Shown here: in pieces, positions 33,310 to 38,720 of the stretch
Layout of the letters: each line of letters begins with the position of its first letter
Position numbering within the stretch: the stretch's first letter is position 1
DNA from: an uncultured Pelagibacteraceae bacterium
GTDB taxonomy: Bacteria > Pseudomonadota > Alphaproteobacteria > Pelagibacterales > Pelagibacteraceae
Direction: 5' to 3'
Assembly (NCBI GenBank): GCA_902616675.1
Contig: CACMTV010000001.1
Location: forward strand, 1-64,000
Length of the DNA stretch: 64,000 bases
Program-made: the position numbers and the translations under genes
Notes under the pieces: model-generated
What the model saw: only the letters and a program-made list of their open reading frames with translations
Told to the model about the DNA's origin: nothing
The model's database searches: none

Positions 33310-33386
33310 TGGTGGGCCCGCCAGGACTCGAACCTGGGACCAATACATTATGAGTGTACTGCTCTAACCAACTGAGCTACAGGCCC
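33310..33386 (-). tRNA. tRNA with CAT anticodon, probably tRNA-Ile2 (lysidine)
   Basis: 77-nt cloverleaf with encoded CCA: acceptor GGGCCTG/CGGGCCC, D arm GCTCAGTTGGTTAGAGC, anticodon loop CTCATAA (CAT at 33350-33352), T arm CCAGG-TTCGAGT-CCTGG. CAT could be Met, initiator Met or Ile2. It is not an initiator (no mismatch at 1-72, no GGG/CCC anticodon stem). C4-G69 and C5-G68 pairs, the known TilS determinants, are present, and the G27-U43 pair plus variable loop TGGTC resemble E. coli tRNA-Ile2 rather than elongator Met. The RNA borders the accessory island on its 5' side. Confidence 0.9.
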
Positions 33387-33481
33387 TTGAAGTTAATTAG
33401 GTATTACACCAATTTTAAAATTCATACAAGTTAACTTTACAAACAATGCATTATTGAAATTTAAAAATATAACTTTTGAAG

Positions 33482-33513
33482 CAGATCTTTTTACCTGGCA
33501 TAATGAAGATCTG
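33482..33513 (+). promoter_or_regulatory. Perfect 8-bp inverted repeat before the restriction gene, spacer contains CCTGG
   Basis: CAGATCTT (33482-33489) and AAGATCTG (33506-33513) flank 16 bases and end 5 bases before the endonuclease ATG. The spacer carries CCTGG at 33494-33498, the kind of site cut by MvaI/BcnI-family enzymes. It may be an operator or an mRNA hairpin that hides the start. No T-run follows, so it is not a terminator. Confidence 0.5.
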
Positions 33514-33518
33514 TAAAT

Positions 33519-34232
33519 ATGGAAAATAACTCGGAGACTTTATTAGCTGAAATAAAAGAAGTTAATAAAAAAGGATGGATTAAAACCTTGCGAAAAGGAG
33601 ATACAGGTGTGGGCTATACACTTGAAACTGAATTAGGTATTAGAGCAAATTCAAATCAGAAACCTGACTTTCATGGAATTGAAATTAAAGCATTTAGAAA
33701 AGGTTCAATCGGTAAGTTAGTTACTTTATTTAGTCAAGTTCCTAACTGGAAAAAAAGTAATACTAATAGAAGCGAAGTTTTGAATGAGTATGGCTACTTG
33801 GATGAAAATAAAAGGTTTAATCTTTATTGTAGTGTATTTGGACATGAAAAAAATACTCTTAATTGGAAATTGGAAGTTGATAGAATCAATAAACGAATAA
33901 ATATTTTTAATAATGATAAGATTGTTACTTTTTGGGATTTTGAAAAAATCGAAGAAAGAATATTAAAAAAACATGATCGAACTTTTTTTGTATATTCAGA
34001 TACAAAAATAGAAAATGGAAAAGAGTATTTTTTATACAATAAAATATTAATTACTCAAAAAGCATCTTTAGAAAATTTTTTAAAATTAATTGAAAATGGT
34101 AAAGTGTGTATGGACTTTGTTATGCATAGAAAAAAAAACGGTACAACTCGAGATCACGGATTTCTTTGGAGAATAAGAAGTAATTTTATACCAGATTTAT
34201 TTGAAAATCAGAAAACGGTAAATTTAACTTAA
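33519..34232 (+). CDS. Type II restriction endonuclease, MvaI/BcnI family
   Basis: 237 residues. The family core is LRKGDTGVGYTLETELGI followed by KPDFHGIEIKAF: a PD-(D/E)xK site with Asp50, Glu55 and Lys57, the same D-x4-E-x-K spacing as MvaI. A conserved C-terminal RDHGFLWRI follows near residue 215. MvaI (CCWGG) and BcnI (CCSGG) are monomeric enzymes that cut one strand at a time; this protein likely recognises a related CCNGG-type site, but specificity cannot be read from sequence. The partner methyltransferase is convergent with a 9-base overlap. No ribosome site is obvious and an inverted repeat precedes the start, so expression may be held low. Confidence 0.85.
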   Translation: MENNSETLLAEIKEVNKKGWIKTLRKGDTGVGYTLETELGIRANSNQKPDFHGIEIKAFRKGSIGKLVTLFSQVPNWKKSNTNRSEVLNEYGYLDENKRFNLYCSVFGHEKNTLNWKLEVDRINKRINIFNNDKIVTFWDFEKIEERILKKHDRTFFVYSDTKIENGKEYFLYNKILITQKASLENFLKLIENGKVCMDFVMHRKKNGTTRDHGFLWRIRSNFIPDLFENQKTVNLT

Positions 34233-35453
34233 CAATTTTATAATATTCAATCCTAACCGTCTGGCTAATTCTACAGGTACTGCATTTCCAATTTGAGTGT
34301 ATTTGGGAACCTCTCTGTCGAATATTCCCTTTTGAGGATTGCCCGCTCTCCTAATTCCACCAGTATGTCTTTTCCCCTGAAAGATATACCAATCTGGGAA
34401 CATTTGTAACCTTGCCCATTCTCTAACAGTTAAAGTTCTTGGCTGCGAATAATGAACATAATCATCAGGTAAAGATGTTGCTGTTATATTGGGACCTTTA
34501 CCATTCCATCTTTTATTTAAAAGTCTTTGAGCGAATTTTTTAGTTTTGAATTTATCCTTTATTACCCCATCATTATCTAACATCGACTTAAATTTTTTAA
34601 CTATATTTGGTGAGTGATTGCTGTATTCTTGATCTGTTAATTTATCTCCTCTTCTTAAAAAAGAATTTTTATTTTTTCTAGTTCTTAAAGTTCTTTGAAT
34701 TTTAGTTTTAGGATCTGATACATAAAAAGAAGTTACAAAATCTTTGTTATAATTTTTATCTATTAAGTCGCTAAATAGTTCGTCTAAATGAGGGTAACTT
34801 ATATCTTTTTTTGGAAATAGTTCTTCTTTGTTAATTTCAGATTTAATATCTTTTCTTATTCCTATAACTAAAACTCTTGGCCTATTTTGAGGAACACCAT
34901 AATCTTTACTTTGCACTAGAGAATAATTATAATTGTAATTTTTTAATTTAGAAAATTGTTTTAAAACATCTTTAAAAATTTCACCTTTTGCACCATTTTT
35001 TGTCCATCTAGCACTGAGTAAACCTCTTACATTTTCAAAGATAAATGCTTTTGGATTAAAGTGTTCGATCACTTTATACATTTCTTTATATAAATAATTT
35101 GAAGGTATTTTTTCTTTATCAACCTTATAGCTTCTTCTGTGACCTATGCCTGAATAGCCTTGACAAGGTGGTCCCCCAACAACCAATGACAAATCACCTT
35201 TTTTAATATTAAATTTGGATTTTAAATTTTTGGAGAGTTCTTCTAATTTTTTTTTACTACCGCTAAGTTCTTTAATATCATTTGAATGAAATTCTTTTAA
35301 ATTTAAATGTTTATATTCAGATCTATTTATTAAATAAGTATTTAGAGCATCATTATTTAATTCATTTACATAAACTGGATTAAAACCTGCCTGCTCTAAA
35401 CCTAAAGATAGTCCTCCACAGCCAGCAAAGAGATCTATAAATGAATTTTTCAT
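34224..35453 (-). CDS. DNA (cytosine-5) methyltransferase of the restriction-modification pair
   Basis: 409 residues with all C5-methyltransferase motifs: I FIDLFAGCGGLSLGLEQAG (5-23), IV GGPPCQGYSG (catalytic Cys97), VI FIFENVRGLL (140-142 ENV), VIII QNRPRVLVIGIR, then a target-recognition region (about 220-300), IX RTLTVREWARLQMFPD, X YTQIGNAVPVELARRL. It should protect host sites from the MvaI/BcnI-family nuclease. The classic M.MvaI and M.BcnI make N4-methylcytosine, so the pairing with a C5 enzyme is different (as in M.EcoRII-type CCWGG methylation). Divergent from the CysC-like gene by 185 bases. Confidence 0.93.
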   Translation of the reverse strand: MKNSFIDLFAGCGGLSLGLEQAGFNPVYVNELNNDALNTYLINRSEYKHLNLKEFHSNDIKELSGSKKKLEELSKNLKSKFNIKKGDLSLVVGGPPCQGYSGIGHRRSYKVDKEKIPSNYLYKEMYKVIEHFNPKAFIFENVRGLLSARWTKNGAKGEIFKDVLKQFSKLKNYNYNYSLVQSKDYGVPQNRPRVLVIGIRKDIKSEINKEELFPKKDISYPHLDELFSDLIDKNYNKDFVTSFYVSDPKTKIQRTLRTRKNKNSFLRRGDKLTDQEYSNHSPNIVKKFKSMLDNDGVIKDKFKTKKFAQRLLNKRWNGKGPNITATSLPDDYVHYSQPRTLTVREWARLQMFPDWYIFQGKRHTGGIRRAGNPQKGIFDREVPKYTQIGNAVPVELARRLGLNIIKLLS

Positions 35454-35638
35454 TTTAAAGGTATATTTAGTTTATTTTATTATTAAATGAGTCGTTAAGG
35501 CTCATAATACACCATTTTTAAATTTAAAGAAAATACGTTTCATTAGTAAATAGTTGGTAAAAATTTTTCTATTCATAATTGATTAAATTAATATTGTTAT
35601 TTCTTGTTTTGAGGTCAATTCTTATCTAAGAATAGGTT
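35454..35638. other. 185-bp non-coding gap between methyltransferase and CysC-like gene
   Basis: Divergent promoter region. It contains a 6-bp interrupted stem (TGAGTC 35488-35493 with GGCTCA 35499-35504, one T-G pair) and a perfect 7-bp palindrome ATTCTTA-TC-TAAGAAT (35618-35633) that ends 5 bases before the ATG at 35639. No ORF of note. No controller-protein gene is present, so these are only candidate operators. Confidence 0.4.
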
Positions 35639-36061
35639 ATGAAAAAACTTAAAATTCTAATCATGGGTCTGCCTGGCGCAGGAAAAACTACCTTAGCTTC
35701 AAAATTAGTTCCATTGCTTAATGCTGAATGGTTGAATGCAGATAAAATTAGAAAAGAGGCAAACGATTGGGATTTTTCTAAAGAAGGAAGAAGCAGACAA
35801 GCTCAAAGAATGGCAGATACTGCTGAAAAAGTAAAAAAAAACAATAAACATGTAATTGCTGATTTTATTTGTCCTACCAAAGAAGCTAGAAAACTTTTTA
35901 AAGCAGACTATTTGATATGGGTTGATACTATTAAAGAAGGTAGATTTGATGACACCAATCAAATGTTTGAACCTCCAGAAAAATACAATTTTTTAGTCCT
36001 AAAAAAAGATGCTGAATTTTATGCTAATAAAATATTTGAGGATATTAAAAAAATAACTTGA
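35639..36061 (+). CDS. P-loop kinase resembling adenylylsulfate kinase (CysC-like)
   Basis: 140 residues. Walker A GLPGAGKTTLA (10-20), then EWLNADKIRKEANDWDFSKEGR (split: LNADKIR and DWDFSKEGR), which matches the CysC pattern of LDGD-x-(V/I)R followed by dlgFs-x-x-dR, and a late VIADFICPTKEARKLF (isP-x-x-x-R). CysC phosphorylates APS to PAPS, the sulfate donor for sulfotransferases; the adjacent convergent gene is a sulfotransferase, which supports this. Against it: the Gly of the LDGD motif is Ala, it is shorter than classical CysC (about 200), and SAR11 cells are known to lack assimilatory sulfate reduction, so a source of APS is not evident. It could act on another substrate. A palindrome sits just before its start. 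Confidence 0.65.
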   Translation: MKKLKILIMGLPGAGKTTLASKLVPLLNAEWLNADKIRKEANDWDFSKEGRSRQAQRMADTAEKVKKNNKHVIADFICPTKEARKLFKADYLIWVDTIKEGRFDDTNQMFEPPEKYNFLVLKKDAEFYANKIFEDIKKIT

Positions 36062-36067
36062 TTATCT

Positions 36068-37120
36068 TTAAGATTGGTAAATACTTTTTAAGTAATTATA
36101 AATGTTTTTTGCTTCCTTTTCTAAATTACTATCTGAGTTAAATTGAACTGTATCTTTTTTTTTATATTTAAAAGTTTTATAATTAAGTCTTTTGAATATA
36201 CTATTTTTAGTTATATCAAATATTCTATTAAATAATTCAGATGGATTGTTTATAATGTCTTCATAACAAATAAAAATAATATTGTTGGAATTTACAAATT
36301 CTTTTTTAGAAAGATTTTTATAAACATATATCCATTGTTTCAGCCAATAATTTATATCTTCCTTATCAAAATATTTTTTTTCATCTGCTTCATCAAAAAG
36401 AAAAGGTTTTTGAATTAAACCAAATTCATGGTGGGCTAGAAATGACATATATTTTTTTGTAAAATTATGTTTTTTTTGAATCCTCGAAAAAAGGATATGC
36501 TGGTTCATAAGTGAGAATGATTGGTATATAGGGTCTCTAAATGGTATTATAATTAAGCTATTGGGAAAATTGTCCCTAATTGAAGATAATCTAAGTATGT
36601 TATTATTATTTTTTGTTAGATAATTTTCCTTATTATATTTAATCAACACAAGATTTATAAATTCCTTATAATCTTCCATTAATTCTTTCGTTACAGAATA
36701 AGACTTAAGTTCATTATGCCTTATATATTGACTTCCAGTTTTAAGCTTCCAAAATGCTTCCTCTAATTGTTCGGGAGTATCTAAATCTATTAAAATATTA
36801 TCTCCGTGCTGTCGCTCAATGGCTTTTCCTTTTTTAAATTTTTTTGATATTTTATTCCATATGTTAGGGGATATGATAAAAGGCATATCTCTATAGGTCA
36901 AAGCTGAAAATTCTCCTGTCTCAAATATTGACCTCATTAAAATTGTAGACCCAGACCTAGCTAGGCCATTTATAAATATGTGATGATTTTTTGAAATATC
37001 TTTAATCTTTTTTTTATAGATAAATTTTTCAATATCGTGAAGAAGTTCAGGAATAAATCTATTACCAAGAACTAAATGGTGTAAAGCTTGCACTAAATAA
37101 GAATAGTTATTATTATTCAT
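36068..37120 (-). CDS. Sulfotransferase family protein
   Basis: 350 residues. The 5'-phosphosulfate loop FINGLARSGSTILMRSIFE (about 49-67) and the 3'-phosphate segment IIPFRDPIYQSFSLMNQ (about 190-206) are the PAPS-binding signatures of sulfotransferases. No signal peptide or membrane segment is seen, so it should act in the cytoplasm. It is convergent with the CysC-like gene (6 bases apart) and divergent from the arylsulfotransferase-like gene (53 bases). The acceptor is unknown; a surface glycan or lipid is a guess. Also common in marine bacteria as a multi-gene family of unknown acceptor. Confidence 0.82.
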   Translation of the reverse strand: MNNNNYSYLVQALHHLVLGNRFIPELLHDIEKFIYKKKIKDISKNHHIFINGLARSGSTILMRSIFETGEFSALTYRDMPFIISPNIWNKISKKFKKGKAIERQHGDNILIDLDTPEQLEEAFWKLKTGSQYIRHNELKSYSVTKELMEDYKEFINLVLIKYNKENYLTKNNNNILRLSSIRDNFPNSLIIIPFRDPIYQSFSLMNQHILFSRIQKKHNFTKKYMSFLAHHEFGLIQKPFLFDEADEKKYFDKEDINYWLKQWIYVYKNLSKKEFVNSNNIIFICYEDIINNPSELFNRIFDITKNSIFKRLNYKTFKYKKKDTVQFNSDSNLEKEAKNIYNYLKSIYQS

Positions 37121-37173
37121 AAAATTATAATATATTGCAAAATAATTGATAACAATAAGATTTAATTAAAATT

Positions 37174-38523
37174 ATGAATTTTGAAAAATTTATTTACAAA
37201 AAAATAAGTTTGTGGATATTGATTTTGACAATTCTTATTTCTATTTTGTTTTCTATTTTTTTTGGTTCTATGGTATTAAGAAGTAATTCAGCAAAATCTA
37301 TAGCGAGAATACCTGATAATATTAAAAAATTATTAGTAAAGTCTGATGATGATTTTATTGGGGGGGATAAAAATAATTTCAAAAATAAAATAGGATTAAA
37401 TAAAAATAACAATTTTAAAAACTCCTTAACAGGATTTATTCTTTTATCTAAGTATGATCACGACGAGAGAAGGTCATATGTAGAATTAATTAATATTAAA
37501 AGCGGTAAGGTTATCCATACTTGGAAACCAAACATTAAAAAAATAAATTCTTTGTCAAACTTACCTAAAAACTTTATTAATGTTGAAAGAGATAACAGTC
37601 CTAATAGATATAGAATGTTTCATCCTTATTTAGATTTGAATGGAAGTTTAATTACACATTCTGAGTCACCTTTAATTAAAATTGATCTTTGTTCAAAATT
37701 GGAATGGCACGTTGATGGTGGTTTTCATCATAGTAATGAAAAGGATCATGAGGGAAATATTTGGGTACCTGCTTGGTCATTTCCAGCTAAAACTAAAGGA
37801 GTGAATTTAGATATTAATGAAAATGATTTGTCGCAAAATATGAATTTTTTTCATGATGATGAGCTAGTAAAACTATCAAGTGATGGTAAAGTTTTATTTA
37901 GAAAGACAGTAATTTCTATTTTAAAAGAAAATAATTTAGAAAAATTAATTTTTCCAATAGGGCAAAACAAAGACCCCCTTCATTTAAATGATATAGAACC
38001 TGTTATAAGTAATTCAGATTATTGGAAAAAAGGTGATGTATTTGTGAGTTTAAGAAATATTTCAATGGTTTTTTTATACAGGCCAAGTAACAATAAAGTA
38101 TTATGGTACAGACAAGGTCCTTGGGTTTTTCAGCATGATGTTGATGTTATTAGTGATTCAAAAATTTCTGTTTTCGATAATAATTTAGATAATTTTACAA
38201 AATCTAGAGTAGATGGAGCAAGCTCAATTGTAATATTTGATTTTGAAAAAAATGATATATCACGACCTTATGATAAAGCTTTTTTAAAAAATGACATTTT
38301 CACAATGACAGGTGGTTTACACAGAATTTTGGAAAACGGTGATGTTTTTGTTGAAGCAACGGACTCTGGAAGACTTGTGAGAATAGATAAAATGGGAAAT
38401 ATAAAATGGGAATATATAAATAGAGCTTCAAATAATAATATTTACCTTCTTAATTGGTCAAGATATTATAAAAGTTTAAATGAAAATATTTTAAAAAAAA
38501 TCAAAAACAAGAATTGTGATTAA
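37174..38523 (+). CDS. Membrane-anchored arylsulfotransferase-like beta-propeller protein
   Basis: 449 residues. A lysine-led membrane anchor (LWILILTILISILFSIFFGSM, about 13-33, single pass) precedes a large periplasmic beta-propeller. Repeated W-x-x-D and NG-D-x-x-x turns, FHPYLDLNGSLIT, DHEGNIWVPAW, DDELVKLSSDGKVLFRKTV, NDIEPVI, and GPWVFQHDVDVISDSKISVFDNN resemble the arylsulfotransferase (ASST / Arylsulfotran_2) families; the QHD His is the candidate active residue. ASSTs move sulfate between phenols without PAPS. Its tight pairing with a sulfotransferase and CysC-like kinase suggests a sulfation theme, but a non-catalytic propeller is possible. A DDDF acidic patch follows the anchor. 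Confidence 0.72.
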   Translation: MNFEKFIYKKISLWILILTILISILFSIFFGSMVLRSNSAKSIARIPDNIKKLLVKSDDDFIGGDKNNFKNKIGLNKNNNFKNSLTGFILLSKYDHDERRSYVELINIKSGKVIHTWKPNIKKINSLSNLPKNFINVERDNSPNRYRMFHPYLDLNGSLITHSESPLIKIDLCSKLEWHVDGGFHHSNEKDHEGNIWVPAWSFPAKTKGVNLDINENDLSQNMNFFHDDELVKLSSDGKVLFRKTVISILKENNLEKLIFPIGQNKDPLHLNDIEPVISNSDYWKKGDVFVSLRNISMVFLYRPSNNKVLWYRQGPWVFQHDVDVISDSKISVFDNNLDNFTKSRVDGASSIVIFDFEKNDISRPYDKAFLKNDIFTMTGGLHRILENGDVFVEATDSGRLVRIDKMGNIKWEYINRASNNNIYLLNWSRYYKSLNENILKKIKNKNCD

Positions 38524-38716
38524 TATACTTAAAAAAAGTTTTTTATTTTATACACTCTTAATCTTTCCTGTGGAAGCCTATATAGGACCTGGTTTGGCAT
38601 TAGGAGCTGCGGTGTTATCTTTGGGGGTAGTGTTATTAATTATTTTTTTTATAATCGCTATTTTATACTATCCATTAAAAAAATTTTTTAAAAAAATTAA
38701 AAAAATTAAAAAATAA
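38516..38716 (+). CDS. Small YIGPG membrane protein, coupled to the arylsulfotransferase-like gene
   Basis: 66 residues starting at a GTG that overlaps the preceding stop by 8 bases. After a signal or first segment (FLFYTLLIFPVEA), YIGPGLALGAAVLSLGVVLLIIFFIIAILYYPLKKFF gives the second helix (shown: YIGPGLALGAAVLSLG, a GxxxG-like glycine stretch) and a strongly basic tail KKIKKIKK. Proteins with an exposed YxGPG motif followed by a helix occur beside many surface-modification enzymes; I do not know their role. The coupled translation suggests a partner subunit for the propeller protein. Convergent with rpoD. Confidence 0.65.
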   Translation: MINILKKSFLFYTLLIFPVEAYIGPGLALGAAVLSLGVVLLIIFFIIAILYYPLKKFFKKIKKIKK

Positions 38717-38720
38717 ATTT

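Follow-up and report, generated by a model that had tools for sequence, protein, structure and literature searches.

Introduction

R.MvaI and R.BcnI, which recognize CCWGG and CCSGG, respectively, are accompanied by N4-cytosine methyltransferases. Their solved chains have 249 residues (MvaI) and 238 residues (BcnI), and both enzymes are active at such short length. Nucleases of this type are monomers that cut both strands of a short pseudo-palindrome successively (review PMC4081073). In SAR11, restriction-modification systems were described as unreported in 2022 (PMC9516812), and for this reason a pair of the MvaI/BcnI family in these bacteria is of interest. Here, we describe a nuclease gene and a C5-cytosine methyltransferase gene found in a window of 64,000 nucleotides (contig CACMTV010000001.1, an uncultured Pelagibacteraceae bacterium), the window being the whole stretch of DNA that was analysed. 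The two genes very probably form a Type IIP restriction-modification system that was gained by horizontal transfer. Support for the Type IIP reading comes from the intact genes, the retained active site and motifs, the predicted fold, the co-occurrence of both genes in a second SAR11 genome and the signature of purifying selection.

The nuclease and methyltransferase genes

The two genes face each other and overlap at their ends:

33519..34232, plus strand: MvaI/BcnI-family restriction endonuclease, short form, 237 aa (PF15515, R.MvaI/R.BcnI matches, AlphaFold2 model)
33666-33668 (D50), 33681-33683 (E55) and 33687-33689 (K57), plus strand: catalytic residues of the nuclease (alignment to R.MvaI)
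34224..35453, minus strand: C5-cytosine DNA methyltransferase, 409 aa, with all core motifs (PF00145, TIGR00675 dcm)
34224..34232, no strand: 9-base convergent overlap of both stop regions, sequence TTAACTTAA (ORF coordinates)

In a profile search, residues 10-228 of the nuclease match positions 2-227 of the 227 in PF15515 (MvaI_BcnI), with E=3.7e-60 and a score of 204 bits against a curated cut-off of 25. The nearest solved structures by sequence (phmmer) are R.MvaI (E=1.4e-23) and R.BcnI (1.4e-7). D50, E55 and K57 lie within the stretch PDFHGIEIK, in register with the D-x4-E-x-K active site of MvaI, and their columns are invariant in 34 aligned nuclease homologues; the motif GDTGVGYTLET occupies residues 27-37. 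The AlphaFold2 model (pLDDT 94.8) aligns with the MvaI-DNA complex 2oaa at Z 26.2 over 231 residues, with BcnI (2odi) at 22.7 and with MutH at 8.3, and a Foldseek search with this model recovered the MvaI/BcnI fold at E 4.5e-21. As modeled, the nuclease has this fold over its entire length. Family, fold, active site and length class are thus common to R.MvaI, R.BcnI and the SAR11 enzyme, whereas identity is only 28 and 22%, respectively, and the partner is of the C5 instead of the N4 type.

The methyltransferase matches PF00145 over residues 4-406 (E=4.3e-62, 210.8 bits) as well as TIGR00675 dcm. Motifs I, IV (PCQ), VI (ENV), VIII, IX, and X are present, and FAGCGGLSLG, GGPPCQG, ENV, QNRPR, and IGNAVP can be read in the translation. 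It is the sole PF00145 match in the source genome, an incomplete assembly (72%). PADLOC labels the two products as Type II nuclease and Type II methyltransferase, and the family matches of both are far beyond chance. An earlier note, made from the letters of the window, had described a complete MvaI/BcnI-family pair, with a nuclease carrying Asp50-x4-Glu55-x-Lys57 and GDTGVGYTLET that overlaps a full-motif C5 methyltransferase by nine bases. Since the PF15515 match is significant and the three catalytic residues are kept in the alignment with MvaI, this observation stands.

By analogy with its family, the nuclease would bind a short pseudo-palindrome of the CCNGG type as a PD-(D/E)XK monomer and nick one strand and then the other, while the C5 methyltransferase would methylate a cytosine of the same site on the host DNA. 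With the host methylated, only unmodified incoming phage DNA would be cut, and the benefit of the pair would be phage restriction. The CCNGG-type target is probable from the specificities of MvaI and BcnI only. In the window, CCNGG occurs 58 times against 40 expected and so is not depleted; this says little for a recently arrived system, and site avoidance was discarded as evidence for specificity.

Partner type in related systems

The C5 partner had been regarded in the earlier note as a different combination for this family. This view has to be abandoned, and with it the C5 enzyme as a new partner type, given the pairs already annotated on public plasmids and the partners at 101 related loci. 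Within 3 kb of the nuclease gene, the methyltransferase was of the C5 type at 87 of these loci, of the N4 type (TSPPY) at eight and of neither at six, as counted with home-made profiles; since the search profile derives from the C5 clade, the sample leans towards that clade. About 85,000 species genomes were scanned, yielding 407 relatives, 80 of which were kept. One of the six loci with neither type, a phage locus (L011), has an N6/N4 methyltransferase on a Pfam scan. In this marine phage record (MH319755, Kyanoviridae; L011:4998-6664) an MvaI/BcnI-family nuclease gene overlaps N6/N4-type methyltransferase and helicase genes, and the record carries a phage-borne restriction-modification set. 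The viral contigs searched held no close relative of either SAR11 gene.

The best plasmid relatives of the two SAR11 genes are adjacent in the same records, in Alisedimentitalea and Phaeobacter, with methyltransferases 48-51% identical to that of SAR11. The pairing is also annotated in Moritella, Vibrio, and Acinetobacter and, more distantly, in Spirosoma, Celeribacter, and Sphingomonas. In the plasmid systems of the first five genera (L003-L008), a homologous nuclease domain adjoins a C5 methyltransferase as in SAR11, but the nucleases, at about 390-480 aa, include an additional N-terminal region, and the genes are arranged in tandem or divergently. A vsr gene adjoins the Acinetobacter baumannii plasmid system; this mismatch-repair gene accompanies several C5-partnered MvaI/BcnI systems (L008, L063-L066), and the SAR11 pair is without it. 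The pairing of a C5 methyltransferase with an MvaI/BcnI nuclease is therefore known and common elsewhere, while the SAR11 host, the rarity of the pair and the shortened nuclease are unusual.

The pair in a second SAR11 genome

The best genome match is the SAR11 single cell AG-464-D09 (L067; uncultured Pelagibacteraceae, CACLIZ010000009.1), which likewise holds a short nuclease (241 aa, 68% identity) and a C5 methyltransferase (409 aa, 79%). The genes are again convergent with a 9-base overlap, although the overlap sequence differs. Unlike the window pair, this copy lies elsewhere, with RmuC and hisG/histidyl-tRNA synthetase genes as neighbours, and its nuclease gene starts 9 bases after the RmuC gene. 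In both the nuclease and the methyltransferase tree the two SAR11 copies are sisters with full support, nested in the clade of long-form enzymes; with the genes adjacent in both genomes, this indicates that they were inherited together.

Between the two copies, dN is 0.233 and dS 1.56 for the nuclease (dN/dS about 0.15) and 0.141 and 1.55 for the methyltransferase (about 0.09), with dS near saturation in both cases. These low ratios point to purifying selection on both genes and to a pair that has been kept functional, and the observations together point to a working and mobile pair. Contamination of the incomplete window assembly (72%) was considered and is unlikely, because of the single-cell copy, the SAR11-like flanks and the match of GC and GC3 to the neighbouring genes.

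The missing N-terminal domain

Most nucleases of the C5-partnered clade have 390-480 aa. A conserved domain of about 155 aa forms their N-terminus, and the catalytic domain follows; the latter starts at residue 10 in the window nuclease and at about 150-180 in most relatives. The signature of the N-terminal domain in the long enzymes is TGLxKSIMDAT ... SLYRPxTKxGDPRIWF. It is exemplified at L096:3521-4000, with homologues across L003-L146, and was modeled at pLDDT 93; searches gave no Pfam, PDB-sequence or Foldseek match, although the domain may still have a known fold. Almost all close relatives have the domain and both SAR11 nucleases are without it. As the two short copies nest inside the long-form clade, they are most simply explained by loss of the domain in the SAR11 line: the SAR11 nuclease would have shed an accessory domain that nearly all of its nearest relatives have kept.

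Such a loss might have left the nuclease dead or nearly so, with the methyltransferase effectively an orphan put to a use other than defence. The retention of the domain by nearly all close relatives would fit this explanation, as would the report that marine Type II methyltransferases mostly occur without a nuclease (PMC9516812). It is nevertheless very improbable: two SAR11 genomes carry the short form intact, at the low dN/dS given above, all catalytic residues are kept, and the full-length model is confidently MvaI-like. MvaI and BcnI, moreover, are equally short and active. Because these two enzymes also lack such a domain, activity of the SAR11 nuclease without it is plausible, and the Type IIP reading is retained. 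The SAR11 short form and the long enzymes offer a natural comparison for the function of this unnamed domain.

The insertion site

The pair lies between a tRNA gene and a kinase-like gene, with a repeat on either side:

33310..33386, minus strand: tRNA-Met (CAT), left edge of the inserted cargo (ARAGORN; the order mlaA-mlaC-tRNA-Met is conserved in congeneric genomes)
33402..33421, plus strand: left copy of an imperfect 20-bp direct repeat (17/20 with the right copy)
35505..35524, plus strand: right copy of this repeat (17/20 with the left copy)
35639..36061, plus strand: P-loop kinase-like gene, right boundary of the insertion (directly after tRNA-Met in genomes without the pair)

One congeneric genome without the pair (G397) has the order tRNA-Met, kinase, sulfotransferase, arylsulfotransferase, rpoD, which is that of the window minus the pair, and another congener (G242) has tRNA-Met, kinase, rpoD. 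Because the kinase gene directly follows the tRNA in both, the pair has been inserted after tRNA-Met, ahead of the kinase gene at 35639. The flanking 20-bp repeat (P about 0.02 against Markov simulations) may be a weak footprint of this insertion. The tRNA-Met to rpoD junction as a whole (33387-38720 in the window) holds cargo that varies among genomes of this SAR11 genus. In many congeneric genomes rpoD follows almost directly after tRNA-Met, while the cargo of other congeners includes kinase, sulfotransferase and arylsulfotransferase, glycosyltransferase-like and methyltransferase-like genes as well as large uncharacterised proteins.

A mobile two-gene unit could also be maintained mainly as a selfish addiction module, in which loss of the pair would leave undermethylated sites and lead to self-cutting. 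The pair is sporadic and compact, and each of the two SAR11 genomes has it at a locus of its own. This agrees with the explanation, which is possible if somewhat doubtful; the same biochemistry serves selfish maintenance and defence alike.

Possible expression control

Upstream of the nuclease gene lies a putative control element:

33482..33513, no strand: 8-bp inverted repeat CAGATCTT-N16-AAGATCTG, possible operator

Its first base, 33482, is where the earlier note had begun its region. A weak promoter-like site underlies the repeat, with TTGAAG at 33476 and CATAAT at 33499-33504, and a CCTGG (33494-33498) lies between these hexamers. Expression of the pair might thus be self-regulated, either through methylation of this CCTGG at the promoter of the nuclease gene or through antisense transcripts that run over the convergent overlap. 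The position of CCTGG inside the repeat is in line with the former and the 9-base overlap shared with the single-cell copy with the latter, and convergent overlaps recur in other members of the 101 loci. About 16% of Markov simulations of the intergenic region, however, contain a perfect 8-bp inverted repeat by chance (P about 0.16, not significant), and the repeat with CCTGG is absent upstream of the single-cell nuclease, which trails the RmuC gene so closely; as an operator it was therefore set aside. An overlap of nine bases alone implies no regulation, and its conservation fits antisense balancing of the two genes without showing it. Self-regulation is, all in all, improbable, and both the promoter-side control by the repeat and the antisense RNA are speculation.

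Restriction systems in SAR11

PF15515 occurs in one of 397 genomes of the order and the nuclease in one of 397 of the family, in both cases the genome of the window itself. The earlier note had called SAR11 genomes poor in restriction systems; for this nuclease family the rarity is borne out, and other Type II systems also occur. Among 394 genomes of the order, 43 have C5 methyltransferases, which in at least two cases adjoin an HNH nuclease. These two SAR11 loci (L163, L164) resemble the window pair in that a C5 methyltransferase lies beside a predicted Type II nuclease; they differ in that the HNH nuclease belongs to an unrelated family and the methyltransferase is divergent (40-44% identity over partial matches). 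In view of the pair described here and of these C5/HNH pairs, the 2022 statement on SAR11 (PMC9516812) is no longer accurate.

Other SAR11 loci carry further C5 genes. Seven (L148, L149, L151-L155) have two adjacent C5 methyltransferase genes each, which suggests restriction systems with asymmetric sites. At three others (L158:1498-3400, L161:1483-3599, L165:1324-3354) a C5 methyltransferase gene convergently overlaps an ORF of 247-293 aa; these ORFs gave no Pfam or PADLOC match and may encode unrecognised restriction nucleases.

A more far-reaching proposal is that SAR11 evolved a streamlined version of the C5-partnered MvaI/BcnI system, in which the N-terminal domain, perhaps regulatory or DNA-sensing, was shed and control was built into a compact convergent locus that circulates among SAR11 cells as cargo against pelagiphages, next to tRNA-Met as well as at further loci. 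This proposal is tentative and rather unlikely. The Type IIP system gained by horizontal transfer is the reading that we prefer. SAR11 are among the most abundant bacteria of the ocean and face abundant phages. An intact Type II pair under purifying selection in two SAR11 genomes indicates that restriction forms part of the mobile cargo of at least some lineages, and the pair supplies a defined enzyme and a defined methylation mark that can be tested in SAR11.
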